The notes beneath the pieces were generated by a model, which had not been told where the DNA came from, made no database searches, and saw only the letters and a program-made list of their open reading frames with translations. Below, one piece after another: positions 94-42,026 of a stretch of DNA of 64,000 nt. The DNA comes from Synechococcus sp. C9. Lineage in GTDB: Bacteria > Cyanobacteriota > Cyanobacteriia > Gloeomargaritales > Gloeomargaritaceae. The stretch lies in assembly GCF_022984075.1 (NCBI RefSeq), contig NZ_JALAAD010000001.1, positions 2,026,455-2,090,454 on the forward strand. Direction: 5' to 3'. Every line of letters begins with the position of its first letter. Within the stretch, counting starts at the first letter, position 1. The position numbers and the translations under genes were made by a program.

Positions 94-1122
94 TCACACT
101 TGCATGGAATTTAAGGCTCGTTCCACCCGCCGAAAATCAAACCCCAATGCCCGTAAAGCGTGCCACAAATGACCTTGTAAAAAGAAAAAGGCTAGGAAAA
201 AATGGGCATTTGCTAACCATGACCGGGATGTATAGGTACCGTAGGGCAATTTCACCGTGTCGGCAAAATAGGGCGTAATCCCCAATTTGACCTCTAAAAC
301 CGAACCATAAAATTCCGGCGGATAGGCAAACGTATTCACCGCACAAAAATAGGCGGCGACGAACCCCGCTAACGCAATGCCCCCAAGGGAATAGGACAAA
401 ATCGCTTCGCCGGAGAATAACAAAACCCTTCTTGCCCAGTTCAATGGCGGCACTAAAATATGCCAAATTCCCCCGGCAATTAACAGAATGCCGACAAAAA
501 TATGCCCCCCCACTAAATCCTCTAAATTATCCAAGCTGGCGAAGTGGGTTTGATAGCCATAAATGACCAGGGGATTGAGCGTCGGTTGGGTCACCAAACG
601 CACGGTTTGGGTAGCGGCATCGTACAAACCACCCCACCAGCAGGCTTTTGCTACTAAGAGTAATGCCCCCATGCCCAAAAATAATAAATGATGCCCCAAA
701 ATGATGCCCAATTGTTGCGGATTCTCCCACTCAAAATGGAAGCGTTTGGCAAACCCGGTGGCATTTTTCAAGTCCTCCGGGGCTTTGAACGTGTGAAACA
801 AGGCGCCTGCCCCCAGCACCGCCGAAGAAATCAGATGCACCGCCCCGACCACAAAGTAGGGATAGGTATCCGCAATTTGCCCGCCTTGACCAACCCCCAA
901 CCCCAAGGTGGCGAGATGGGGCAAAAGAATCAACCCCTGTTCCCCCATTGGCTGGGCGGGATTAAAGCGAGAAATTTCAAATAAGGTAAAGGCTCCCGCC
1001 CAAAAGGTAATCAACGCCGCTTGGGCAGTATGGGCGGCAATAAATAAACCGGATTTATCAGCAAAACGGGCATTTCCCGCCCACCAGCCATAGGTCACTT
1101 CCGGCTCACCATAGGTTTGCAT
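94..1122 (-). CDS. pcb: chlorophyll-binding antenna protein of the Pcb/IsiA (CP43') family
   Basis: 342 residues, the usual length for the family, with six hydrophobic helices and the conserved opening [17 protein letters not shown]. Family hallmarks include [27 protein letters not shown] and the C-terminal block [27 protein letters not shown]; the helix histidines are the expected chlorophyll ligands. It should be a thylakoid-membrane chlorophyll a antenna around photosystem I or II. It lacks the large lumenal loop of true CP43. The internal sequence looks to me closer to Pcb-type proteins than to classical IsiA, but the two intergrade. A Fur-box-like palindrome about 160 bp upstream would fit induction by iron starvation. 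Confidence 0.9.
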
Positions 1123-29981: not shown

Positions 29982-30066
29982 TTTATTCATTGATTTCCAG
30001 ATGCTTCTGTGAGCTAATTACTACTAGCAATATGGAGAAAAAAAATGGGTCAAAGCAATGAGATAG

Positions 30067-30085
30067 AAGTGCCCTTTATACTCTT
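30067..30085 (-). repeat. fragment of repeat family 2
   Basis: TAGAAGTGCCCTTTATA is the reverse complement of the family 2 left end (GGGCACTTCTA). Only the end remains, just upstream of birA. Confidence 0.4.
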
Positions 30086-30114
30086 TGGGTATTGCTGAAT
30101 TTTTTGTGCCGGTT

Positions 30115-30882
30115 ATGTGCTTGCCCCCTTGGTTGCACTGGCTCGATGAATGTCCCAGTACCAACACTTGGGCATTACAATCGCTGGACAGATTAGCCCA
30201 GGGCGATGTGGTCTTTACCCCCCGACAGACGGCAGGACGGGGACAACAGGAACGCCCTTGGTATGCGCCACCGGGAGTTTTAACCGCTTCGTTTATTTTA
30301 GAACCGCTGGCTCCCCCCGAATTGCCCTGGTTGAGTTTGGCGGCGGGGTTGGCGGTGATCCATGCGGTCGAGGATTTACTGCCCTTGCCTGCCCTGGCGT
30401 TGGGGATCAAATGGCCGAACGATGTCCTGCTCTGGGGGCGGAAGGTGGCGGGGGTGCTGTGCGAAGCCCGGTTGCCCAAAGCGGTGGTCGGGGTGGGGCT
30501 GAATCGGCAGGTGGATTGGCCAAGGGTTTTGGCAGGGGGCACGATGGATGTATCCCCGGCTCAGGTGGCGAGTCTTTCGGAGGTGAGCGATACGCCGCCG
30601 GAGGTACTGCCTTTGTTAACACAATTGCGAGATTACTTTTTGCAGGCTCATGGGGTAATTCGGCAGAAGGGCTTGACCGGGCTTTTGCCCCAACTGCGCC
30701 AGCGGGATGTGCTGTATAGTTGTCCGCTGGTTGTCCATACATCGGACGGGATGCTTAGCGGGGTGGGGGCGGGGATTGACGCTTGGGGGCGGTTACAGGT
30801 GCAACGGGCCGATGGAACAGTGCAAGCCTTGTCCGCCGGTCGGGTGGTGCGCTGGGAGCCTTCACGCCGCTGGGATGAGTAA
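30115..30882 (+). CDS. birA: biotin--protein ligase
   Basis: 255 residues from the ATG at 30115 (MCLPPWLHWL). No N-terminal HTH, so it is a ligase only. The biotinyl-AMP site has ECPSTNTWA, TAGRGQQERPW (the GRGxxxR loop) and GIKWPNDVL with GRKVAGVLCE. It attaches biotin to carboxylases such as acetyl-CoA carboxylase. Its last 21 bp overlap the 3' end of the convergent biotin-dependent guanidine/urea carboxylase gene, one of its likely substrates. Confidence 0.93.
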   Translation: MCLPPWLHWLDECPSTNTWALQSLDRLAQGDVVFTPRQTAGRGQQERPWYAPPGVLTASFILEPLAPPELPWLSLAAGLAVIHAVEDLLPLPALALGIKWPNDVLLWGRKVAGVLCEARLPKAVVGVGLNRQVDWPRVLAGGTMDVSPAQVASLSEVSDTPPEVLPLLTQLRDYFLQAHGVIRQKGLTGLLPQLRQRDVLYSCPLVVHTSDGMLSGVGAGIDAWGRLQVQRADGTVQALSAGRVVRWEPSRRWDE

Positions 30883-33800
30883 AAGCACGATTTGTCCCGC
30901 TGTCACGGCTTGTCCGGGTTGACAGAGGATTTGGGCAACGGTAGCGTCTAGGGGGCTAAGCACCGCAATTTCGGTTTTCATGGCTTCGATAATCATCAAC
31001 TTTTCCCCGGCATGAACCACTGCTTGCGGGGTGACCACCACCTGCCAAACCGTGCCACTGACTTCCGCCCGCACCGCCACCTGCCCTGGGGGGATGGGAA
31101 TTTCCGTCGCCTCTAGCGGAGCAGTTGCCGCTTCCGTGTCCGGTCGGTCAAATTCCCCAGCCGCTACCCACCGTTCCCGTTCGGCATCAAAGGCGTTTTG
31201 TTGTTGAGTTTTGAAAGCCTGAATGGATGCGGCATGGTCTTGCAGAAATTGCTGATAGTCCCCCAGATGAAACGTTTCCTCGTGAATGTCTAATTTCACC
31301 CGCCCATAGGTCACATCCTCCCGGTAGCGCTGGAGTTCCGCCCCGGTGACTGGGAAAAAGCGAATTTGGTCAAAAAACCGCAACAGCCAGGGCTGGGTAA
31401 AATCGGCAGTCCGGTAATAGCGATTCCACACGGGCACCGTGCGCCCCACCAACTGATACCCCCCCGGTCCTTCCATGCCGTAAATGCACAGATACGCCCC
31501 GCCAATTCCCACCGCATTCTCCGGCGTCCAGGTGCGGGCAGGGTTGTATTTGGTTGTGACCAGCCGATGCCGGGGGTCAAGCGGGGTTGCCACCGGTGCC
31601 CCCAGATACACATCCCCCAACCCCAGCACCAAATAACTCGCTCCAAACACAATGTCATACACCTGCTGGACATCCGCCAAGCCATTCACCCGCCGGATAA
31701 ATTCCAAATTGCTCGGACACCAAGGCGCATCCGGTCGCACCGACTGCATATATTTAGTGATGGCAAGCTGGATCGATTCATCATTCCAGGACAGGGGCAA
31801 ATGCACGATGCGGGTGGGCACGGTCATCTGCGCCACGTCAGGTAATTCGGCTTCCGCCGTTGCTAATATATCCAAAAGTTCAGAACGGGGCAGTCGCTGG
31901 TTATCGTAATGCACTTGTAATGAGCGAATACCGGGGGTCAGGTCAATAATGCCGGGAATCTTTTGCGCTTGCAACCAGGTCATCAGCCCATGCACCCGGA
32001 ACCGCAGGGTCAAATCCAAAGTTAACGGCCCGTATTCGATCAATATATATTTGTCCCCCGCCTGCCGATAGGTCACCCCCACCGGATGGGGAGCCGTCAT
32101 CTGCTTGAGTACTGGTTCCGTAGCCACTGGTACGGCGGGGATAGGCGGTAGGGGCGCCAGGCGAGCCAGTTCTTCTTCCTGTCGCTGTTCCCAGGCGCAG
32201 GCGGTCGGTTCATCCATCGGGAAAAATCGCACCCGGTCCCCCGGTCTCAACTGCCCGATTTTCCACAGTTCCGCCTGCACAATCGTCGCCGGACAGACAA
32301 ACCCCCCCAAACTCGGCCCGTCGTACCCCAAAATGATCGGCATATCCCCGGTAAAGTCAATCGTGCCGATGGCATAGGCGTTGTCGTGGATGTTGGAAGG
32401 GTGCAGACCCGCTTCCCCCCCATCCGGTCTGGCCCAGGTGGGCGCCGGGCCAATCAGCCTTATCCCCGTGCGGGCCGAATTGTGATGCACCACCCAGGCG
32501 TGGCTCAACAGCAGTTCCATATCCTGCGGGGTAAAAAAATCCGGTGCCCCGTGGGGACCCACCATCACAGCGATTTCCCAGGCATCCGTGTATTGGGGAA
32601 TTAAGTCCGGGGGCAAAACTGCCGGTTGGTCCTGCCCATCCCAGGGTGTCAGCGGCAACCCATCCCCCGCCCGCAGGACTCTGCCGCCATGTCCGCCAAA
32701 TTGCCCCAGGGTAAAGGTCGCCCGACTGCCCAAATACTCCGGCACCGACACCCCCCCCTGCACCGTAATATAGGTGCGATACCCCGCCCCCTGCACCGCC
32801 TTCAGGGTCAACACACTCCCGGCTTGCACCGTCACCGTCTGCCAGTAGGGAACCGGTTGCCCGTCCAGAGTCGCAGGCATCATCGCCCCAGTCAGGCAAA
32901 TGCGGGTCGGTGCATTAAAGCGCAGGGTCGGCCCCGCCATCGTACATTCCAGCCCAGCCGCCCCCAGGGGATTGCCCAGCAGACGATTGCCCCAGCGAAA
33001 GGCTAGGTGATCCATCGGACCCGACGGCGGCACCCCCACATCCCAATACCCCAACCGCCCCGGATAGTCCTGCACGGTAGTAAAGGTACCGGGAGCCAAT
33101 ACGTCAATCGTCTGGGGCTGATAGGTGAATTGGGAGAGCCACTGGGTACTCACTTCGCCCCGCTGAAACTCCGGGGTCGCCACCACCTGTTGCAGGTATT
33201 CCAGATTGGTCGCAATCCCTGCCAGAGTGGTGTGCGCCAACACCGTTTGCAACTTTTGGAGCGCCGCCGCCCGGTTTTCCCCATGCACCATCGCTTTCGC
33301 CAACAGGGGGTCGTAGAAGGGGGTTACCTCGGTCCCACTGCGAATCCAGGCATCCCACCGGGCACCCTCCGCCAATGCCACATGGGTCAGCACCCCGGCG
33401 CTGGGCTGGTGGTTTTTGTGGGGGTCTTCGGCATAAATCCGGACTTGGATGGCATGACCCTGGGGCTGGTGATGATAACGGTCGAAAAAATCCCGTTCCC
33501 CGGCAGCCAAACGCACCATCCATTCCACTAAGTCAATACCGCAGACCAACTCGGTGACCCCGTGTTCCACCTGCAACCGGGTATTGACCTCCAGGAAATA
33601 AAATTCGCCCGTTGTCCCGTCCACAATAAATTCCACCGTGCCCGCCGACTGGTACTGCACCGCTTCCCCCAACCGTTGCGCCGCTTGGTAGAGTCCCTGC
33701 CGCACCGATTCTGGCAACCCTGGCGCTGGCGTTTCCTCGATCACCTTTTGATTGCGCCGCTGGCTGGAACAATCCCGCTCCCCCAGGGTGAGAACCCGCC

Positions 33801-34452
33801 CCTGCCCATCCCCAAAAATCTGCACCTCCACATGGCGAGCCACAGGAATGTATTTCTCCAGGAACACCCCACTATCCCGGAAATTAGCCTGGCTCAACCG
33901 TTGCACCTGCTCATAGGCTACCGCCAATTCCGCCGCATCTTCACACCGACGCATCCCAATTCCCCCGCCCCCCGCCGTACTTTTGAGCATCACCGGATAG
34001 CCGATCTGCGCTGCTGCCGCCTGCGCCTCGGTGAGATTATTTAATAAAGAAGTACCAGGAACCAGGGGAATCCCCTGACGGGCCGCCAGATCACGGGCAA
34101 GGTGCTTGCGACCAAACTGGCGAATGTGTTCCGGCTTGGGTCCAATAAACACCAGCCCCCGTTGGGCACAGGCACTAGCAAAATCCCCATTTTCGCTGAG
34201 AAACCCGTACCCCGGATGGATCGCCGCCGCCCCCACCTGCACCGCCAGGTCCAACACCCGCTCCCCTTGCAGATAACTCTCGCTGGCCAGGGTTCCCCCC
34301 AACGCTAACGCTTCCGTCGCCTCCTCTACATGGGGACTGTGCCGATCCGGTTCCGAATAAACCGCCACACTGGCAATCCCCAGCCGGTTTAAGGTGCGGA
34401 TAATCCGCAGGGCAATTTCCCCCCGATTGGCGACCAGGACTTTGGCGAACAT
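30862..34452 (-). CDS. guanidine carboxylase of the urea carboxylase family (biotin-dependent)
   Basis: 1196 residues from ATG 34452, which shares one base with the upstream stop. In order: biotin carboxylase (~1-450; KVLVANRGEIALRIIRT, ATP loop KSTAGGGGIGMR, LEVNTRLQVEHGVTE); carboxyltransferase of KipA/AHS2 type (~470-770) then KipI/AHS1 type (~800-1010); biotinyl domain with EAMKTE, biotin Lys ~1159. It carboxylates guanidine or urea with ATP and bicarbonate. The guanidine-I riboswitch and two CgdAB-like partners point to guanidine; urea as an additional substrate cannot be excluded. Confidence 0.88.
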   Translation of the reverse strand: MFAKVLVANRGEIALRIIRTLNRLGIASVAVYSEPDRHSPHVEEATEALALGGTLASESYLQGERVLDLAVQVGAAAIHPGYGFLSENGDFASACAQRGLVFIGPKPEHIRQFGRKHLARDLAARQGIPLVPGTSLLNNLTEAQAAAAQIGYPVMLKSTAGGGGIGMRRCEDAAELAVAYEQVQRLSQANFRDSGVFLEKYIPVARHVEVQIFGDGQGRVLTLGERDCSSQRRNQKVIEETPAPGLPESVRQGLYQAAQRLGEAVQYQSAGTVEFIVDGTTGEFYFLEVNTRLQVEHGVTELVCGIDLVEWMVRLAAGERDFFDRYHHQPQGHAIQVRIYAEDPHKNHQPSAGVLTHVALAEGARWDAWIRSGTEVTPFYDPLLAKAMVHGENRAAALQKLQTVLAHTTLAGIATNLEYLQQVVATPEFQRGEVSTQWLSQFTYQPQTIDVLAPGTFTTVQDYPGRLGYWDVGVPPSGPMDHLAFRWGNRLLGNPLGAAGLECTMAGPTLRFNAPTRICLTGAMMPATLDGQPVPYWQTVTVQAGSVLTLKAVQGAGYRTYITVQGGVSVPEYLGSRATFTLGQFGGHGGRVLRAGDGLPLTPWDGQDQPAVLPPDLIPQYTDAWEIAVMVGPHGAPDFFTPQDMELLLSHAWVVHHNSARTGIRLIGPAPTWARPDGGEAGLHPSNIHDNAYAIGTIDFTGDMPIILGYDGPSLGGFVCPATIVQAELWKIGQLRPGDRVRFFPMDEPTACAWEQRQEEELARLAPLPPIPAVPVATEPVLKQMTAPHPVGVTYRQAGDKYILIEYGPLTLDLTLRFRVHGLMTWLQAQKIPGIIDLTPGIRSLQVHYDNQRLPRSELLDILATAEAELPDVAQMTVPTRIVHLPLSWNDESIQLAITKYMQSVRPDAPWCPSNLEFIRRVNGLADVQQVYDIVFGASYLVLGLGDVYLGAPVATPLDPRHRLVTTKYNPARTWTPENAVGIGGAYLCIYGMEGPGGYQLVGRTVPVWNRYYRTADFTQPWLLRFFDQIRFFPVTGAELQRYREDVTYGRVKLDIHEETFHLGDYQQFLQDHAASIQAFKTQQQNAFDAERERWVAAGEFDRPDTEAATAPLEATEIPIPPGQVAVRAEVSGTVWQVVVTPQAVVHAGEKLMIIEAMKTEIAVLSPLDATVAQILCQPGQAVTAGQIVLLLIPAA

Positions 34453-35102
34453 CAGCCCGCCGCATCCCAAATTAGCAACCGCACCGGCGTCGGGTGGTAG
34501 GCATTACAGGGATTGTTAATTTGGGGACAGTTGGAAATCAACACCAGCACATCCATTTCCGCCCGCAAATCCACATATTTCCCCGCCTCGGAAATCCCGT
34601 CCACAATTTCCAGCGTGCCATCCGCCGCCACCGGCACATTCATAAAGAAATTGATATTGCTCACCAAATCCCGCTTGTTCATCCCGTACTGGCTCAATTC
34701 CAGCAGGTAATTTTCCACACAGGCGTGCAGATGCTTCTTGTGCAGACCATAGCGCACCGAATTGCTCTCCATACTGCACGCACCCCCCAGGGTATCGTGA
34801 CGACCACAGGTATCGTTCAGCACCGTCATCAGTACATTGCCCGCATTGGACAGCAATTGCGTCCCCGCCGTGATAAAGATATTCCCCTGGCGCACCACTG
34901 TATCCGGCGCACTGTAGCGCTCCGAGGTATCGGCGGCATTGTAAATCAGGGTGTCCACCGCCTGATTCCCCTCCACATCCACAATCCGTAAAATTTGCCC
35001 CTTGTGCACCACCTTCGACCAGGGCTGGCGGGCAGGCAATTCGTAGTCGTAAATCGCCTGGGTGGGGTCAAGGGTGGGGGTCGCCATCGTCATCGTCGCC
35101 AT
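34452..35102 (-). CDS. urea carboxylase-associated protein, probable carboxyguanidine deiminase subunit
   Basis: 216 residues from ATG 35102, placed about 10 nt after AGGAGG; ATGs at 35111 and inside the Met-rich start are alternatives. Core segments are LRIVDVEGNQAVDTLIYNA, DTLGGACSMESN and YVDLRAEMDVLVLISNCPQINNPCN. It is homologous to the neighbouring gene. The pair corresponds to the 'urea_degr' proteins, shown in other bacteria to form carboxyguanidine deiminase (CgdA/CgdB), releasing ammonia to give allophanate. Which subunit is A or B I cannot say. Confidence 0.85.
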   Translation of the reverse strand: MATMTMATPTLDPTQAIYDYELPARQPWSKVVHKGQILRIVDVEGNQAVDTLIYNAADTSERYSAPDTVVRQGNIFITAGTQLLSNAGNVLMTVLNDTCGRHDTLGGACSMESNSVRYGLHKKHLHACVENYLLELSQYGMNKRDLVSNINFFMNVPVAADGTLEIVDGISEAGKYVDLRAEMDVLVLISNCPQINNPCNAYHPTPVRLLIWDAAG

Positions 35103-35161
35103 CGTTTTCATGCCTCCTGAAAAAAAGTTACTGCAAACATTAGTACAAAAAATTACATTCC

Positions 35162-35941
35162 CTAGAGGGCGTAATGGGGAGCCAGCGGTCGTTGCCGCCA
35201 CCAGGTATCCGTGTTGATAAATCCCCGCACCACCTCCTCGTTCGCCGTGCGACAGGGGTCATCAGCCGCCGGTTCCGGGGAACGCCACACCGTCAGTTGG
35301 ATGGGTTGCGGTCGGTACACCGTATCCGGGTGCAGGACATGGGGACAGTTGGCAATCACCACCAGCACATTCATTTCCGCCCGCAAATCCACATAAGCAC
35401 CGGGTTTAGCCGCCCCGGCATCGTACTGCAAATCCCCCGTCGGTGTCACCGTCACCCGGCTAAAGAAATTCACATTCGGCATCAAATCCCGGCGGGACAT
35501 CCCCCACTTGCCCAACGCCCGCAGAAACTGATCCTGGGCACTGTGAAAATCCTGGCGACCCTGAATCTCCGTGCCCGTTCCCCCATGCCCGTACTTGGCT
35601 CGATTGGTCGCCGCCGTACTGCAACCGCAGATCAGGTCATGACCGTTGGACGTATCCGCCGTGATGGAAAACAAAATCCGCCCCATGTCCGAGTACAGCA
35701 CCATCCCCTGGCGCAAAAAGGCGTTGAACTGGATTTTGGCTGTATCCGCCACATTCAAGCGCTCCATCGGGCGGTCAGCGTTATAGCCAATCATCGCCAC
35801 TCCCTGCGACCCCCCCAAATCCGTAATCCGCAGGGTCTGCCAGCGGGGAATCACCCCATGCCAATAGCCTCCCCCCGGCACCTTCTCCGACCAAACCACC
35901 AATTCCGGGCGAATGTCCGTTTCTGCCACCGTTGCCACCAT
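35162..35941 (-). CDS. urea carboxylase-associated protein, second carboxyguanidine deiminase subunit
   Basis: 259 residues from ATG 35941 (MVATVAETDIRPEL) behind AGGAGGT; a longer frame would run through the riboswitch and is rejected. Core LRITDLGGSQGVAMIGYNAD, HDLICGCSTAATN and YVDLRAEMNVLVVIANCPHVLHP parallels the next gene. First gene of the riboswitch-controlled operon; 59 bp precede the second subunit. Conserved Cys and His in the core (CGCST, NCPH) may bind metal, by family analogy. Confidence 0.86.
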   Translation of the reverse strand: MVATVAETDIRPELVVWSEKVPGGGYWHGVIPRWQTLRITDLGGSQGVAMIGYNADRPMERLNVADTAKIQFNAFLRQGMVLYSDMGRILFSITADTSNGHDLICGCSTAATNRAKYGHGGTGTEIQGRQDFHSAQDQFLRALGKWGMSRRDLMPNVNFFSRVTVTPTGDLQYDAGAAKPGAYVDLRAEMNVLVVIANCPHVLHPDTVYRPQPIQLTVWRSPEPAADDPCRTANEEVVRGFINTDTWWRQRPLAPHYAL

Positions 35942-35947
35942 GACACC

Positions 35948-35990
35948 TACCTCCTTGACTGGGTTACTCAACGACGAAGCCCCGGAGATA
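35948..35990 (-). promoter_or_regulatory. possible Shine-Dalgarno-sequestering helix downstream of the riboswitch
   Basis: On the minus strand TATCTCC (35990-35984) can pair over seven positions, one G-U, with GGAGGTA (35954-35948), the ribosome site of the first deiminase gene. It could be the expression platform if guanidine binding prevents this pairing. No intrinsic terminator is evident. Confidence 0.35.
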
Positions 35991-36025
35991 ACGCAACTTA
36001 GCCTGTCTCCCAGACTAATCGCACA

Positions 36026-36136
36026 ACCTCCCGGGCTTTTATCCCGCCGTGTAACCGCACCCACCAAGGCAACGGTCTGCTTCTCTCGGACCAGCCACAG
36101 TAGTCAACGCCACTGCCGGAACCCTAGAAGCTCTCC
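36026..36136 (-). promoter_or_regulatory. guanidine-I (ykkC) riboswitch
   Basis: Read on the minus strand the leader has all conserved blocks in order: CTTCTAGGGTTCCGGC near 36131-36115, GGCTGGTCCGAGAGAAGC near 36096-36079, and ACACGG with GGGATAAAAGCCCGGGAGGT near 36053-36026. These are diagnostic for the guanidine-I aptamer. It lies 85 bp upstream of the first deiminase gene, so free guanidine should switch the operon on. Confidence 0.95.
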
Positions 36137-36269
36137 TAATTGGCTTATGACCCTATCCTAATCCTCCCCCTGTAAAAAACAGTTGCTTTTGCTACTTTTT
36201 ACAAAAATTTACAATCTTTTTCTTGGGGATTGTTCCTATGTATGCCCACAGATTTCCGCCTCAAAAAGT

Positions 36270-36283
36270 GTATCTCAAGATAC
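36270..36283. promoter_or_regulatory. NtcA-type nitrogen-control palindrome
   Basis: GTATCTCAAGATAC is a perfect palindrome matching GTA-N8-TAC. It lies in the divergent region between the riboswitch operon and the ABC importer, about 144 bp upstream of the importer start. A clear -10 at the expected distance is not obvious. Confidence 0.55.
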
Positions 36284-36426
36284 TGTTTTCCCTGATTTGC
36301 TTTGGGGATGCTTAAGGCGATACAGGGAGCGTTGACGTTGGGGGTGAAATCATCACGATTTCCCACTCCCTTCACTGGTGATGAACAGTTGGGTTCTAGT
36401 TCGTTTTTCGGGAGTTTACGGGTGGC

Positions 36427-37497
36427 ATGAAATGGAAATCTCACGCTTGGAATGGGTTGTTGTTTGTGTTGGCAATGATGCTAGCCGTCAGTTGTGTTCC
36501 TCCGAAGGTGCAAAGTGAAAGTCCGGTGGTGCGCCTGGGTTTTAGTGCCTGGCCGGGCTGGTTTCCCTGGCAAGTCGCCCAGGAAAAAGCGATTTTTACC
36601 ACCAAAAATGTGCAGGTAGATTTGAAGTGGTTTGATAGCTATTTGGACTCAATTAATGCCCTCACAGCCCAACAATTGGAAGCGAATTCCCAGACCCTTA
36701 ATGACACGATTAGCGCCGTAGCCGGTGGTGCGGATCAGGTGATTGTTTTGGTGAATGATAATTCGACGGGAAATGACAAAATCATCGTCCGGGAAGGCAT
36801 TAATACCATTGCGGATTTGAAGGGGAAAAAAGTAGCCGCCGAAGAGGGAACAGTGGATCATTTTCTCCTGCTTTTGGGGATGGAAAAAGCGGGATTAAAA
36901 CCCTCGGATATTACGTTTGTGCCCTTGGAAACCGGGAAAGCCGCCACCGCCTTTGTCGCCGGACAGGTGGATGCGGTGGGGGTGTTTGCGCCGTTTACCA
37001 CCCAAGCCTTGAAACGTCCGGGCAGTAAGGAATTATTTAGTTCCAAGGATTTTCCGGGGGCGATTTCTGACCATTTGGTGTTTACCCGGAGCTTTGTGAA
37101 TGAGCATCCCGAACAGGTGCAGGCGCTGGTGGATGCCTGGTTTGCGACGACGAAATTTTTGGAAACTAATCCCGAAGAAGCCATTGCCATTATGGCGAAA
37201 AAAGCCAATGTTTCGGTGGAGGAATACAAACAATATGCGGCGGGTACCCGGATTTTTACGGTGCAGGAAAATATCGCCGCTTTTCAACCTGGTAATGATA
37301 TGTCCTCGTTGCCTTTTGCGGCTCAGAAAATCAGTGCCTTTTTAACCCAAGTCGGTTTAGCGAAAACCCAACCGGATTTGAGCAAATTGTTTGACGACCG
37401 GTTTGTGAAAGCCTATGCCGCCCGTGCCCAAGCCCAAATGTCCCCCGTTCCAGTGACTTCCCATGACCGATCCCCAACGTTCCCAGCCCCTGCGTGA
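36427..37497 (+). CDS. ABC transporter substrate-binding lipoprotein (NMT1/SsuA-TauA type)
   Basis: 356 residues. A lipoprotein signal (LAMMLAVSC, lipobox Cys at residue 23) is followed by a periplasmic binding fold beginning RLGFSAWPGWFPWQVAQEK. This family binds nitrate, sulfonates, taurine, pyrimidine precursors and similar small ions. Context with guanidine catabolism suggests guanidine or a guanidino compound as ligand. It overlaps the permease start by 35 bp. The C-terminal tail after ~345 is Pro/Ser-rich. Confidence 0.88.
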   Translation: MKWKSHAWNGLLFVLAMMLAVSCVPPKVQSESPVVRLGFSAWPGWFPWQVAQEKAIFTTKNVQVDLKWFDSYLDSINALTAQQLEANSQTLNDTISAVAGGADQVIVLVNDNSTGNDKIIVREGINTIADLKGKKVAAEEGTVDHFLLLLGMEKAGLKPSDITFVPLETGKAATAFVAGQVDAVGVFAPFTTQALKRPGSKELFSSKDFPGAISDHLVFTRSFVNEHPEQVQALVDAWFATTKFLETNPEEAIAIMAKKANVSVEEYKQYAAGTRIFTVQENIAAFQPGNDMSSLPFAAQKISAFLTQVGLAKTQPDLSKLFDDRFVKAYAARAQAQMSPVPVTSHDRSPTFPAPA

Positions 37498-38311
37498 CCA
37501 GTTACAGCCCCGGCAGTTGCGCCCGTCGGTGTTTTGGCGGATTGCTGAGGACATTCCCCGCCGGTTGTACTGGCGGTTGGTCACCCTCTCCATCTTGTTT
37601 CCCCTGGTGGCGTGGGGCTTGGTGACCTGGATCAAAGCCGTTGACCCGACGTTTTTGCCCTCGCCGGGACAGGTGGTGCAGGCGGCGGTTCGCCTGGGGC
37701 GTTCGGGGGAGTTGTGGCGGGATACCTGGGCAAGTGTGGGGCGGGTGGGGGTGGGGTTTGCGCTCTCGGCGTTGGTGGCGATTCCGGTGGGACTGCTGAT
37801 GGGAAGTTTTGCCAGTATCCGGGCGTTGTTGGAACCCCTGTTTGGGTTGATGCGCTATATGCCGGCGCCAGCGTTTATTCCCCTGTTGATTTTGTATCAG
37901 GGGGTGGGGGAAGAACCAAAGGTGACGCTGATTTTTATTGGTACGTTTTTTTTCAATGCGTTGATGGTGATGGATACGGTGAAATTTGTGCCGAAGGAGT
38001 TAATTGAAACCACGTTTATGCTGGGAGGAAATCGGATGGCGACGGTGATGCAGGTGATTTTTCCCCATGTCCTGCCGGGGGTTTTGGATGCCTGTCGGAT
38101 CAATTTGGCGGCGGCTTGGCAGTTGGTGATTGTGGCGGAATTGGTAGCGGCGACGGAGGGGTTGGGGCGACGGATTAGTTTGGCGGGCAGATTTTTGCGG
38201 ACGGATGAAATTTTTGTAGGGATTATCGTGATTGGATTGATCGGGTTGGGGTTGGATTTGTTGTTTCAATATCTGGTGCGGTTGACCAGTCCTTGGGCGG
38301 ATGCGAAATGA
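37463..38311 (+). CDS. ABC transporter permease (SsuC/NrtB type)
   Basis: 282 residues with about six membrane helices. A coupling-helix segment of BPD_transp_1 type is present: ETTFMLGGNRMATVMQVIFPHVLPGVLDA (EAA-like G at the loop). It overlaps the binding-protein gene and is followed 32 bp later by the ATPase. Probably a homodimeric channel for the imported nitrogen compound. Confidence 0.9.
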   Translation: MTDPQRSQPLRDQLQPRQLRPSVFWRIAEDIPRRLYWRLVTLSILFPLVAWGLVTWIKAVDPTFLPSPGQVVQAAVRLGRSGELWRDTWASVGRVGVGFALSALVAIPVGLLMGSFASIRALLEPLFGLMRYMPAPAFIPLLILYQGVGEEPKVTLIFIGTFFFNALMVMDTVKFVPKELIETTFMLGGNRMATVMQVIFPHVLPGVLDACRINLAAAWQLVIVAELVAATEGLGRRISLAGRFLRTDEIFVGIIVIGLIGLGLDLLFQYLVRLTSPWADAK

Positions 38312-38343
38312 GTTGTTTCTATGACCAATTGGGAGGTGCATTC

Positions 38344-39138
38344 ATGTTTTTACAGGTGCGACAGTTGACGAAACATTTCCCGACTAAGCGGGGGACGTTG
38401 GTGGCGTTGGAGGATATTAATTTCTCGATGACCGCCGGGGAGTTTGTCTGTGCGGTGGGGGCTTCCGGTTCTGGTAAATCTACTCTCCTGCGGCAGATTG
38501 CGGGGTTGGATCAGCCGACCCGTGGGGGGGTGTGGATTGATGGACAGAGGGTGACGGGACCGGGGGCGGACCGGGGGATCGTCTTTCAGCATTACTCCCT
38601 GTACCCCTGGATGACGGTGCAGGAGAATGTGGAATTTGGGTTGAAATTGCACGGGATTCCCCCCCGGGTGCGGCGGGAACAGGCGCAGTACTACCTGGAG
38701 GTGGTGGGATTGACGGCGTTTGCCCAGGCGTTGCCCCGGCAGTTGTCTGGGGGGATGAAACAGCGGGTGGCGATTGCCCGGGCGTTGGCGGCGGAACCCC
38801 GGATTTTGTTGCTGGATGAACCGTTTGGGGCGTTGGATTTGCACACCCGGGAAACCATGCACGAATTTATGGTGCAACTGTGGCAGCGCACCCGTCTCAC
38901 GGTGTTTATGATCACCCACGATGTGGAGGAGGCGGTGTTTTTGGCGAATCGGATTTTGGCGTTGAGTGCTCACCCGGGGCGCATCTGTCGGGAGATGCAG
39001 GTGGAATTGCCGGATCGGAGTTTGGGGGTGATGGCAATCAAACGCCATCCGGCTTTTCATGACTACCGGGATGAATTGGTGCGGCTGTTGCGGCAACAGG
39101 GACGGGCGGATGCGCCTACCCCAGCGTTGGTGGCTTAG
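38344..39138 (+). CDS. ABC transporter ATPase (SsuB/NrtD/TauB type)
   Basis: 264 residues from ATG 38344, chosen because GGGAGG precedes it; an ATG at 38308 overlapping the permease stop is possible. Walker A GASGSGKSTLLRQIAG, signature LSGGMKQRVAIARAL, Walker B ILLLDEPFGALD, switch His in MITHDVEEA. Energises the importer. Confidence 0.93.
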   Translation: MFLQVRQLTKHFPTKRGTLVALEDINFSMTAGEFVCAVGASGSGKSTLLRQIAGLDQPTRGGVWIDGQRVTGPGADRGIVFQHYSLYPWMTVQENVEFGLKLHGIPPRVRREQAQYYLEVVGLTAFAQALPRQLSGGMKQRVAIARALAAEPRILLLDEPFGALDLHTRETMHEFMVQLWQRTRLTVFMITHDVEEAVFLANRILALSAHPGRICREMQVELPDRSLGVMAIKRHPAFHDYRDELVRLLRQQGRADAPTPALVA

Positions 39139-39155
39139 GGTAATCCTGCCAGGTT

Positions 39156-39342
39156 AGAAGTGTTGAATCCTGCAACAAAGGTTCGTAAATTTGGGGCAGG
39201 TAAAACGCTTTATGATGACAAATCTTTTCGTTATCAATGAGAATCTGGCTCTCAAATGGTAATGGTTTTCGTTGTCAGACTAGATGCACATTCTGGTGCA
39301 AACCCTCAAAATCTCCTCAAAATCTTAGGATTCGACACTTCT
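39156..39342. repeat. single MITE-like element between importer and allophanate hydrolase
   Basis: Terminal arms AGAAGTGTTGAATCCT (39156-39171) and AGGATTCGACACTTCT (39327-39342) are inverted with one mismatch. A second, imperfect palindrome lies near the centre (GTTATCAATGAGA ... TCTCAAATGGTAAT). No other copy found in the window. Confidence 0.5.
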
Positions 39343-39357
39343 GCTTCTAAGTAACTT

Positions 39358-40737
39358 ATGATCTCAAGCCTCGATTTGCCATCCTTGCGTCAGGCGTACA
39401 GCACGGGGCAGGTGACCCCGGTTGACGTTGTCGAAACGGTGTACGAACGGATTGAACGGTATGCTGACCCGGCGGTGTGGATTTATTTAGCACCTAAGGA
39501 GGAGAGTTTACGGCGGGCGCAGGCGTTGACCAAAACCGAACCGAGCCAGTTGCCCCTGTACGGTATTCCCTTTGCCATCAAGGACAATATCGATTGGGCG
39601 GGGGTGCCCACGACGGCGGGGTGTCCCAGTTTTGCCTATGTGCCCCAACAGTCGGCGACGGTGGTGAACCGGTTAATCTTCGCCGGGGCAATCCCCATCG
39701 GGAAAACCAATTTGGATCAGTTTGCGACGGGGTTGGTGGGCACCCGTTCTCCCTACGGCATTTGCCGCAATCCCTTTCACCCGGAGTACATTCCGGGGGG
39801 GTCGAGTTCCGGGTCGGCGGTGGCGGTGGCGGCGGGGCTGGTGAGTTTTAGTTTGGGGACGGATACGGCGGGTTCCGGGCGGGTGCCTGCGGCGTTTAAC
39901 CAGATTGTGGGCTTGAAACCCACCCGGGGTTATCTCAGTACCCAGGGGGTGGTGCCCGCCGTGCGGAGTCTGGATTGTGTGTCCATCTTTGCCCTCACCT
40001 GCCGGGATGTCCAGGCGATTCTCCGGGTAGCCGCTGGGTTTGACCCGCTTGACCCCTTTTCCCGGTCGCCCCAGTGGACGGAGCAACCGCCGGGTCTGCG
40101 GGTGGGGGTGCCGCCGAGGGAACAGTTGGAATTTTTTGGCAATGAGGCGGCGGCAAAGAATTACCAGCAGGCGTTGACCCGGTTGGCGGCGCTGGGGTGT
40201 ACTTTAGTTGAAATCAATCTAACGCCGTTTTTGACAGCGGGTGACTTGCTGTACGAGGGGGCGTGGTTAGCGGAGCGGACGGCGGCGGTGGGGGAATTTC
40301 TCCGCCAGACCCAAGCGGGGGTTGACCCGGTGGTGCGGCAAATTATCCTGGCGGGTGAGGCGATTTCCGGGGTGCGGGTGTTCCAGGATATGTACCGTTT
40401 GGCGGCGCTGAAACGGAAAACGGAAATGCAATGGGCGCAGATGGATATGCTGGTTCTGCCCACCACCGGGACGATTTACCGGGTAACAGAAGTGCTGGCT
40501 GAACCCATCGCCCTGAATCGCCATTTGGGACGGTACACCAACTTTGTCAATCTCCTCGACCTGTGTGCCTTGGCAGTACCGAGCGGCAGGCAACCCAACG
40601 GTCTCCCGACCGGCATCACCCTCATGGCTCCGGCGGGGCGGGATCAATGGCTGTGCTACTGGGGGCAACGGTATCAAGCGGCGTTGGGGGGAATGTTGGG
40701 AGCCACCGGGATTGCTTATGGGGAGGTGTCCCCATGA
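39358..40737 (+). CDS. atzF: allophanate hydrolase, amidase domain (AtzF-like)
   Basis: 459 residues, an amidase-signature enzyme. The Lys-cisSer-Ser triad sits in AIKDNID (Lys), GGSSSGSAVAVAAG and LGTDTAGSGRVPA (nucleophile Ser). It hydrolyses allophanate, the deaminated product of carboxyguanidine, toward ammonia and CO2. Fused AtzF/DUR-type enzymes are about 600 residues; here the C-terminal domain is a separate gene overlapping by ATGA. No strong ribosome site is seen before the ATG. The gene lies divergently from the carboxylase but completes the same pathway. Confidence 0.92.
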   Translation: MISSLDLPSLRQAYSTGQVTPVDVVETVYERIERYADPAVWIYLAPKEESLRRAQALTKTEPSQLPLYGIPFAIKDNIDWAGVPTTAGCPSFAYVPQQSATVVNRLIFAGAIPIGKTNLDQFATGLVGTRSPYGICRNPFHPEYIPGGSSSGSAVAVAAGLVSFSLGTDTAGSGRVPAAFNQIVGLKPTRGYLSTQGVVPAVRSLDCVSIFALTCRDVQAILRVAAGFDPLDPFSRSPQWTEQPPGLRVGVPPREQLEFFGNEAAAKNYQQALTRLAALGCTLVEINLTPFLTAGDLLYEGAWLAERTAAVGEFLRQTQAGVDPVVRQIILAGEAISGVRVFQDMYRLAALKRKTEMQWAQMDMLVLPTTGTIYRVTEVLAEPIALNRHLGRYTNFVNLLDLCALAVPSGRQPNGLPTGITLMAPAGRDQWLCYWGQRYQAALGGMLGATGIAYGEVSP

Positions 40738-41180
40738 CCGAACCCTACCGCTTGGCGGTCGTCGGTGCCCATTTGACCGGACAACCCCTGAACTATCAAC
40801 TCCAGGAATTACAGGCTCGGTGCCTGCGTACCTGTACCACCGCACCCCTCTATCGTCTGTACGCCCTTTTTGGGGGGGAAATACCCAAACCCGGTCTGGT
40901 GCGCCAAAGGGCAGGGCAACCGGGCTATGCCATTGAGGTGGAAGTCTGGGCTTTGTCGGCTGGTGGTTTTGGGCACTTTGTGGCGCAAATTCCCTCGCCC
41001 CTGGGGATTGGCACGCTCATTTTAGAGGACGGGGAAACGGTCAAGGGCTTTGTGTGTGAGTCGTTTGCGGTGGCGGATGCCCTGGATATTTCCCACTACG
41101 GCGGTTGGCGGGCGTATCTGGCGGCGCAGGCGAGAAAAAATTCCTCAGAACCCCTAGACAAATCCAGAGATTCAGTCTAA
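40734..41180 (+). CDS. allophanate hydrolase C-terminal domain as separate protein
   Basis: 148 residues, matching the AH_C part of allophanate hydrolase (gamma-glutamylcyclotransferase-like fold): MTEPYRLAVVGAHLTGQPLNYQLQ, VEVWALSAGGFGHFVAQIPSPLGIGTL and VKGFVCESFAVADALDISHYGGWRAY. The start overlaps the amidase stop (ATGA). In fused enzymes this part handles the N-carboxycarbamate intermediate; probably it acts with the amidase as a two-subunit enzyme. Confidence 0.88.
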   Translation: MTEPYRLAVVGAHLTGQPLNYQLQELQARCLRTCTTAPLYRLYALFGGEIPKPGLVRQRAGQPGYAIEVEVWALSAGGFGHFVAQIPSPLGIGTLILEDGETVKGFVCESFAVADALDISHYGGWRAYLAAQARKNSSEPLDKSRDSV

Positions 41181-41384
41181 GATTTTAGATCGTGTCGCTA
41201 ATCCACTGACCCGGTTGACCCTGGAACAGTGGGGGATACTGCATCCCTTAGTCATGTGCGGGGGATGTAAGTCTCGGGGCGATCAAACTAGAGCTTGGTG
41301 CGGTGCAGAGGTTCGGCAGTCTCGGGTTTTCCGCTGGGAAATGCGGTCGAGCCTGTGGCGTTTATTTCGTTGTGGAGGCCAGTC
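41181..41384 (+). promoter_or_regulatory. leader and promoter region of the ribosomal protein operon
   Basis: 204 bp without an ORF of its own. It contains GGAGG about 7 nt before the rplC GTG start. Stem-rich stretches between 41255 and 41360 may form an autoregulatory leader, but I cannot identify a known one. Confidence 0.35.
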
Positions 41385-42026
41385 GTGGCATTGGGAATCC
41401 TGGGAACCAAGTTGGGCATGACCCAGCTTTTTGATGAAACGGGCAAGGCGGTGCCGGTGACGGTGGTGCAGGCGGGGCCCTGTACGGTGACGCAGTTGAA
41501 AACCACAGCCACGGATGGCTACGATGCGGTGCAACTGGGGTTTGGGGTGACCCGGGAAAAGACCTTGAGCAAGCCGGAGCGGGGACATTTACAAAAGGCG
41601 AACGCCCCGTGGGTCAAGCATCTGCGGGAATACCGGTTGGACAATCCCAGCCAGTACCAGGTGGGTCAGCAGATCACGGTGGAATTATTCCAGCCGGGGC
41701 AACGGGTGGACGTGGTGGGCACCAGCATTGGGCGGGGCTTTGCCGGGTATCAACGGCGGCACCATTTTGGGCGGGGGCCGATGGCGCACGGTTCCAAAAA
41801 TCACTGCCAGCCCGGTTCGATTGGGGCGGGTACCACCCCGGGGCGGGTCTATCCGGGGAAACGCATGGCGGGACAGATGGGCAACCAGCGGGTGACAATC
41901 AAAGATTTGCGCGTCTTTAAGATTGACCCGGAGCGTCATCTGATCCTGATTCGGGGGTCGGTGCCGGGGAAACCGGGTGCCTTGGTGAGTGTCACCCCCG
42001 CCAAACTTGTGGGCGCAAAGGGGTAA
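41385..42026 (+). CDS. rplC: 50S ribosomal protein L3
   Basis: 213 residues. Start is a GTG at 41385 ([14 protein letters not shown]), preceded by GGAGG; the longer frame upstream is leader sequence. L3 signatures include [18 protein letters not shown] and [17 protein letters not shown], the latter the peptidyl-transferase-centre loop. First visible gene of the S10-type operon; rpsJ (S10) is not beside it, as is usual in cyanobacteria. Confidence 0.97.

Follow-up and report, generated by a model that had tools for sequence, protein, structure and literature searches.

A riboswitch-headed gene island in Synechococcus sp. C9 predicted to assimilate guanidine by the carboxylase route

We analysed a 64,000-nucleotide stretch of the Synechococcus sp. 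C9 genome (Gloeomargaritales; contig NZ_JALAAD010000001.1, positions 2,026,455 to 2,090,454; hereafter the window), in which a guanidine-I riboswitch and genes for two carboxyguanidine deiminase (Cgd)-type subunits, a biotin-dependent carboxylase, an ATP-binding cassette (ABC) importer and a two-gene allophanate hydrolase lie together. We consider it very likely that these genes make up a complete system for assimilating guanidine by the carboxylase route. A first-pass annotation, made from the sequence alone, had proposed that guanidine is converted here to allophanate and then to ammonia, and four independent lines of evidence support this pathway: (i) the riboswitch; (ii) aspartate at the two carboxylase positions equivalent to residues 1330 and 1584 of the K. 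lactis enzyme; (iii) the combination of both Cgd paralogues, allophanate hydrolase and an importer of a riboswitch-associated family and (iv) a genome with neither an arginase-family protein nor urease. The same gene set is found in five congeners.

The carboxylase gene (30862-34452, minus strand) encodes a complete enzyme of about 1196 amino acids with biotin carboxylase (BC), carboxyltransferase (CT) and biotin carboxyl carrier protein (BCCP) parts. It matches TIGR02712 at 1831 bits (cut-off 1304) over model positions 1-1200, its biotin-accepting lysine lies within EAMKTE, and the label 'biotin carboxylase' that it first received was too narrow for a full-length BC-CT-BCCP protein. Homology to the K. 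lactis urea amidolyase structures (PDB 3va7 and 5i8i; 1151-1153 bits) extends over the full length of the carboxylase; unlike the window enzyme, the yeast protein is fused, carries Asn1330 and is urea-specific. According to PMC11410670, the residue equivalent to K. lactis 1330 is Asp in guanidine carboxylases and Asn in urea carboxylases, and a second Asp, at 1584, is required as well. When the window enzyme was aligned to these structures, Asp699 (codon GAC, 32356-32358, minus strand) was equivalent to Asn1330 and Asp947 (codon GAT, 31612-31614, minus strand) to Asp1584. It thus has the published guanidine-carboxylase signature at both positions, and Asp where a urea carboxylase would have Asn. 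The suspicion voiced in the first-pass annotation, that calling the gene 'urea carboxylase' by default would probably be a mistake, is borne out by these residues, the riboswitch, the Cgd pair and the genome context.

The riboswitch heads the minus-strand operon. A covariance search with RF00442 matched positions 36138-36026 of the minus strand over the full model (1-107) at 80.1 bits (gathering threshold 63; E=1.2e-12), which bears out the earlier prediction of a guanidine-I (ykkC) aptamer in front of two Cgd-type genes and the carboxylase and answers the check proposed with it, a covariance-model search at 36026-36136. This is the only copy in the 2.96 Mb genome. The aptamer ends 85 nt from the ATG of the first gene on the same strand, which places it in the leader of guanidine-metabolism genes, and its core is near-invariant across six congeners. 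The leader also folds as a strong alternative hairpin (z -4.8) that competes with aptamer helix P3; across six congeners, the window included, this P3-breaking hairpin is favoured by 4.6-12.7 kcal/mol.

Downstream of the aptamer are a UAAP1-type (CgdB-type) subunit (35162-35941, minus strand; TIGR03425, 294 bits, cut-off 206) and a UAAP2-type (CgdA-type) subunit (34452-35111, minus strand; TIGR03424, 348 bits, cut-off 285), the two labels having been assigned by profile and position only. Both of these paralogous DUF1989-type subunits score above cut-off, as expected of a CgdAB pair. The likely start codons are the ATGs at 35941 (CgdB), 35111 (CgdA) and 34452 (carboxylase), and the CgdA-type stop codon meets the carboxylase start codon.

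On the plus strand, the divergent operon begins with an importer made up of a substrate-binding protein of the SsuA/NrtA type, predicted to bind guanidine (36427-37497; TIGR01728, 243 bits, cut-off 163.5), a TauC/NtrB-like permease (37463-38311) and a TauB/NtrCD-like ATPase (38293-39138). The binding protein is 54-67% identical to those encoded behind guanidine-I riboswitches in guanidinase genomes, and the permease is 57-86% identical to those of riboswitch-linked importers. There follow, also on the plus strand, separate genes for the amidase part of allophanate hydrolase (39358-40737; TIGR02713, 589 bits over positions 2-417 of 563, cut-off 511) and for its C-terminal part (40734-41180; 179 bits over positions 439-563), joined by an ATGA overlap (ATG 40734-40736, TGA 40735-40737). 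These matches and the overlap confirm the divergent importer and split hydrolase that were first read from the sequence. A sequencing error cannot account for the split, because the same arrangement recurs in congeners and in several other cyanobacteria; the enzyme is fused in Gloeobacter and most proteobacteria.

Taken with what is known of these protein families, the gene content points to the following route. The ABC transporter would import guanidinium, and guanidine binding to the nascent leader RNA would turn on the minus-strand operon. The carboxylase would then use ATP, bicarbonate and biotin to convert guanidine to carboxyguanidine, CgdAB would deiminate this to allophanate and ammonia, and the two-gene hydrolase would break allophanate down to two more ammonia and CO2. 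Searches of the genome gave no arginase-family match at E<=1e-20, and a urease alpha subunit was likewise absent. The former means that there is no guanidinase and, given that urease is missing as well, the carboxylase looks like the genome's only route for guanidine. Since free urea does not arise at any step of the carboxylase route, the cell would not depend on urease; a guanidinase would yield urea, which a urease-less host could not use. Allophanate hydrolase is present in every carboxylase-bearing Gloeomargarita-group genome, which fits a self-sufficient route.

Several observations weigh against this interpretation. Firstly, the locus is divided in one congener (G239; L051, L052): the riboswitch, CgdBA, importer and allophanate hydrolase map to 2.02 Mb, and the carboxylase, together with birA, maps to 1.68 Mb. 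With about 330 kb between the two sites, the carboxylase there escapes riboswitch control. Secondly, the importer operon is not headed by a guanidine riboswitch: no second one, on the importer side or elsewhere, was detected down to E=1 within 30000-41500. A divergent second riboswitch before the importer is common in other cyanobacteria, and the Gloeomargarita-group lineage is without it. Thirdly, the binding protein scores 157 bits against a cut-off of 334 for TIGR03427, the only model for a urea-carboxylase-associated binding protein, and falls in SsuA_fam instead. Fourthly, neither expression platform that we considered was retained; the leader has no terminator-like site or U-run terminator, and the accessibility shifts expected of ligand-gated Shine-Dalgarno exposure were inconsistent among six congeners. 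Finally, the specificity rule is imperfect. A Hyphomicrobium has Asn at the diagnostic position and keeps CgdAB, and one cyanobacterial carboxylase (G585) is of the Asn type yet is accompanied by CgdAB, importer and riboswitches, its nearest relatives having Asp (L223). For the Asn of G585, a recent substitution, an error in the sequence and an exception to the specificity rule are all conceivable.

Both operons may also respond to nitrogen status. Upstream of the aptamer there is a putative NtcA-type promoter (36155-36195, minus strand) consisting of GTAN8AAC (36182-36195), a gap of 21 nt and a TAGGAT -10 element (36155-36160), and a putative NtcA box of the GTAN8TAC pattern, GTATCTCAAGATAC (36270-36283), precedes the importer operon; the NtcA-like pattern was chosen post hoc, after inspection. 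Boxes of the GTAN8 type match the consensus of NtcA-activated promoters. The arrangement GTAN8(A/G)AC, about 21 nt, TAN3T stands upstream of the aptamer in all six island-bearing congeners, the window included; the window's layout, with A at the variable base, is shared with two of them, and the other three have GTAN8GAC-N-TAN3T. The A form occurs once in the whole window, both strands counted. In front of the importer, GTAN8TAC is found in 6/6 Gloeomargarita-group genomes with the island. This suggests that both operons also require nitrogen hunger and so form, with the riboswitch, a two-input gate.

The importer and the putative NtcA boxes bear on whether the island assimilates guanidine or instead detoxifies it, whether the guanidine be internal or incoming. 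The carboxylase route would serve either purpose, the two are not exclusive, and guanidine riboswitches often govern export or detoxification (PMC12186494). We nevertheless consider detoxification in place of nitrogen assimilation unlikely, since the locus includes a dedicated ATP-driven importer, NtcA-like boxes stand before both operons and the predicted end product includes three ammonia.

Alternatively, guanidine could be an intermediate, with the real substrate being a substituted guanidine such as methylguanidine or a creatinine-type compound. Precedent comes from Vreelandella, where demethylation of methylguanidine feeds a carboxylase operon (PMC12508155). In three Gloeomargarita-group congeners a gene for a Rieske-type oxygenase lies directly upstream of the riboswitch (L236:13489-14586; also L237 and L238), and a creatininase is encoded in a riboswitch-headed operon of another genome (G527). 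The window island contains no such gene, and the corresponding stretch (36139-36426) is short and intergenic, so we judge this to be very unlikely for Synechococcus sp. C9. Genes for Rieske-type oxygenases also lie close to the carboxylase in Gloeobacter and in further genomes (L226:7046-8158, L211:15500-16648), and these enzymes could possibly release guanidine from a substituted guanidine. Elsewhere, a different importer is found in riboswitch-headed operons that also encode either a creatininase (370 bits) or a protein remotely resembling one (L219:970-3952, L244:6301-9262), and a glutamine-synthetase-type protein near several of the creatininase-type operons points to other guanidino compounds.

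Guanidine itself remains, in our view, the probable substrate of the window carboxylase, and a wider survey placed this enzyme in context. Of the 49 cyanobacterial carboxylases that we read, 47 are of the Asp type; all 47 of the corresponding genomes have CgdA, in one case only in part, at the edge of a contig. A guanidine-I riboswitch is present in 45 of the 49 genomes. Apart from G585, the other Asn-type enzyme is found in genome G336, where it lies beside a split allophanate hydrolase; a search of that genome found no CgdA, no guanidine-I riboswitch and no urease. By every mark that can be read from its genes, the G336 enzyme qualifies as a true urea carboxylase, and it serves as a natural control. 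The proposal that the window island assimilates urea, with urea carboxylase and allophanate hydrolase standing in for the missing urease, as a 2019 survey suggested for Gloeomargarita and Gloeobacter (PMC6737895), would suit a genome without urease, for which these two enzymes would suffice, and the very name of TIGR02712, 'urea carboxylase', but it is the least probable of the alternatives given that residue 1330 is Asp rather than Asn, CgdAB would be superfluous, a guanidine riboswitch heads the operon, and the cyanobacterial enzyme that does fit, that of G336, has Asn and neither CgdA nor riboswitch. In a maximum-likelihood tree of 71 sequences (quick search, some long branches, and a small sample of 22 non-cyanobacterial rows), all cyanobacterial carboxylases fell on one side of a single branch (SH-aLRT 100). 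Both Asn enzymes nest within this guanidine-type clade, and the Asn state would therefore have arisen inside it.

With regard to distribution, RF00442 was found in 120/386 genomes of an even draw of the phylum and TIGR02712 in 9. A draw restricted to Cyanobacteriia gave TIGR02712 in 57/390 genomes and 25/160 genera, which makes the route a minority trait with a scattered distribution, and not a unique case. In the Gloeomargaritales, six of eight genomes possess it. The first-pass annotation had considered a complete carboxylase route notable in this phylum. This stands insofar as the trait is in the minority and others use guanidinase, and has to be tempered insofar as 57/390 genomes carry the gene and it has been catalogued since 2019 as 'urea carboxylase'. 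Its remark that some other cyanobacteria use a guanidine hydrolase-type enzyme proved accurate for 42/42 riboswitch-bearing, carboxylase-less genomes tested. These 42 were among 50 riboswitch-bearing Cyanobacteriia that we compared, and in each an arginase-family gene lies 293-436 bp behind the riboswitch. The remaining eight are carboxylase genomes with no guanidinase-type gene behind the riboswitch; where they have an arginase-family gene, it is a single, lower-scoring one located elsewhere. The two enzymes are thus mutually exclusive behind the riboswitch in 50/50 genomes (Fisher p about 2e-9, relatedness ignored), and the importer family is common to the carboxylase and guanidinase genomes examined. 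The simplest reading is that one sensing and uptake module has been joined to either of two enzymes. Another class of the phylum has guanidine-I riboswitches too, in about 60 small genomes of ~2 Mb (family f31).

The pathway itself is already known. Compared with that of Pseudomonas syringae, Klebsiella and Raoultella, the window island has the same enzymes, specificity residue and riboswitch class and a nearby ABC importer (PMC12186494, PMC11410670); it differs in having two divergent operons, a riboswitch on the enzyme side only, a two-gene allophanate hydrolase, birA alongside, NtcA-like boxes and a urease-less host. The Synechocystis GdmH/Sll1077 system, with HypA/B-like factors and the importer Sll1080-1082, shares the guanidine-I riboswitch and the importer family; its nickel guanidinase and urease are replaced here by a route dependent on ATP and biotin. 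What is new is the count of 47/49 Asp-type enzymes, the presence of CgdA in all 47 genomes and the exclusivity of the riboswitch-linked enzymes.

The genes published in cyanobacteria as uc, ah, ucp1 and ucp2 correspond to the carboxylase, allophanate hydrolase and the two Cgd paralogues. Urea was assigned to uc/ah, with guanidine unmentioned, in both PMC6737895 and PMC11844795. In the former (Veaudor 2019), 'urea carboxylase' and allophanate hydrolase were reported from four cyanobacteria without urease (Gloeomargarita lithophora, Calothrix PCC 7507 and two Gloeobacter species), ucp1/ucp2 were noted beside uc in M. vaginatus FGP-2, and the Gloeomargarita and Gloeobacter genes served as the argument that cyanobacteria had urea carboxylase before they had urease. 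The carboxylases of G. violaceus (G393) and G. kilaueensis (G410) are both of the Asp type and accompanied by CgdA; the guanidine-I riboswitch is present in G. violaceus and none was found in G. kilaueensis. By their residues, then, the Gloeomargarita and Gloeobacter enzymes behind the precedence argument are predicted to be guanidine-type, and Calothrix PCC 7507, which is probably G336, would be the bearer of a real urea carboxylase. More generally, the cyanobacterial 'urea carboxylase' would almost always be a guanidine enzyme, and genes published as a urea-catabolic set would have to be assigned another substrate. In Microcoleus vaginatus, uc/ah induction was read as urea use and formed part of the basis for a urea-based mutualism (PMC11844795, 2024). 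If our reassignment is correct, this 'urea transfer' signal in biocrusts may instead report on guanidine or on nitrogen starvation; the direct urea measurements of that study are untouched by it. With both Asp-type and Asn-type enzymes, the cyanobacteria also provide a natural experiment for the study of switches in substrate preference.

A broader scenario would be that nearly all cyanobacterial 'urea carboxylases' are guanidine carboxylases of one clade, exclusive with guanidinase behind a shared riboswitch, that the sole clear urea carboxylase re-evolved within this clade through an Asp-to-Asn change with no CgdAB or riboswitch, and that most carriers are without allophanate hydrolase and dispose of allophanate by another enzyme. 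We regard the chances of this scenario being right as evenly balanced. Its last part concerns the 57 carboxylase genomes searched, of which 54 have CgdA and only 20 an allophanate hydrolase above cut-off; Gloeomargarita and Gloeobacter retain the hydrolase, and carboxylase genomes without it have generic amidases only (e.g. L041, L201, L210, L229). Neighbour clustering and the loci with a second riboswitch revealed no general, conserved replacement and gave lineage-specific candidates only. Biuret-hydrolase-like cysteine hydrolases lie near the carboxylase in three genomes without allophanate hydrolase (L211:18603-19361, L219:5022-5747, L220:13646-14320), and creatininase-like proteins are another such candidate. 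In three genomes of one genus, an amidase without the C-domain directly adjoins CgdBA (L246:2790-4256, L248:3785-5263, L250:5111-6607); it is 31-34% identical to the amidase part of the window allophanate hydrolase and is a possible substitute for it.

Two further genes of the window deserve mention. A biotin-protein ligase gene, birA (30085-30882, plus strand; TIGR00121, 122 bits), is convergent with the carboxylase gene, overlaps its end and is the sole copy in the genome; it lies at the left end of the interval covered by the first-pass annotation, which left it unmentioned. About 15 of the 49 cyanobacterial loci, in several families, have birA near the carboxylase, and in two of these (L202, L203) it closes a riboswitch-headed importer operon. 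Outside the island, the antisense RNA IsrR was detected at 552-729 (plus strand; 98 bits, gathering threshold 52), which indicates an isiA gene on the opposite strand.

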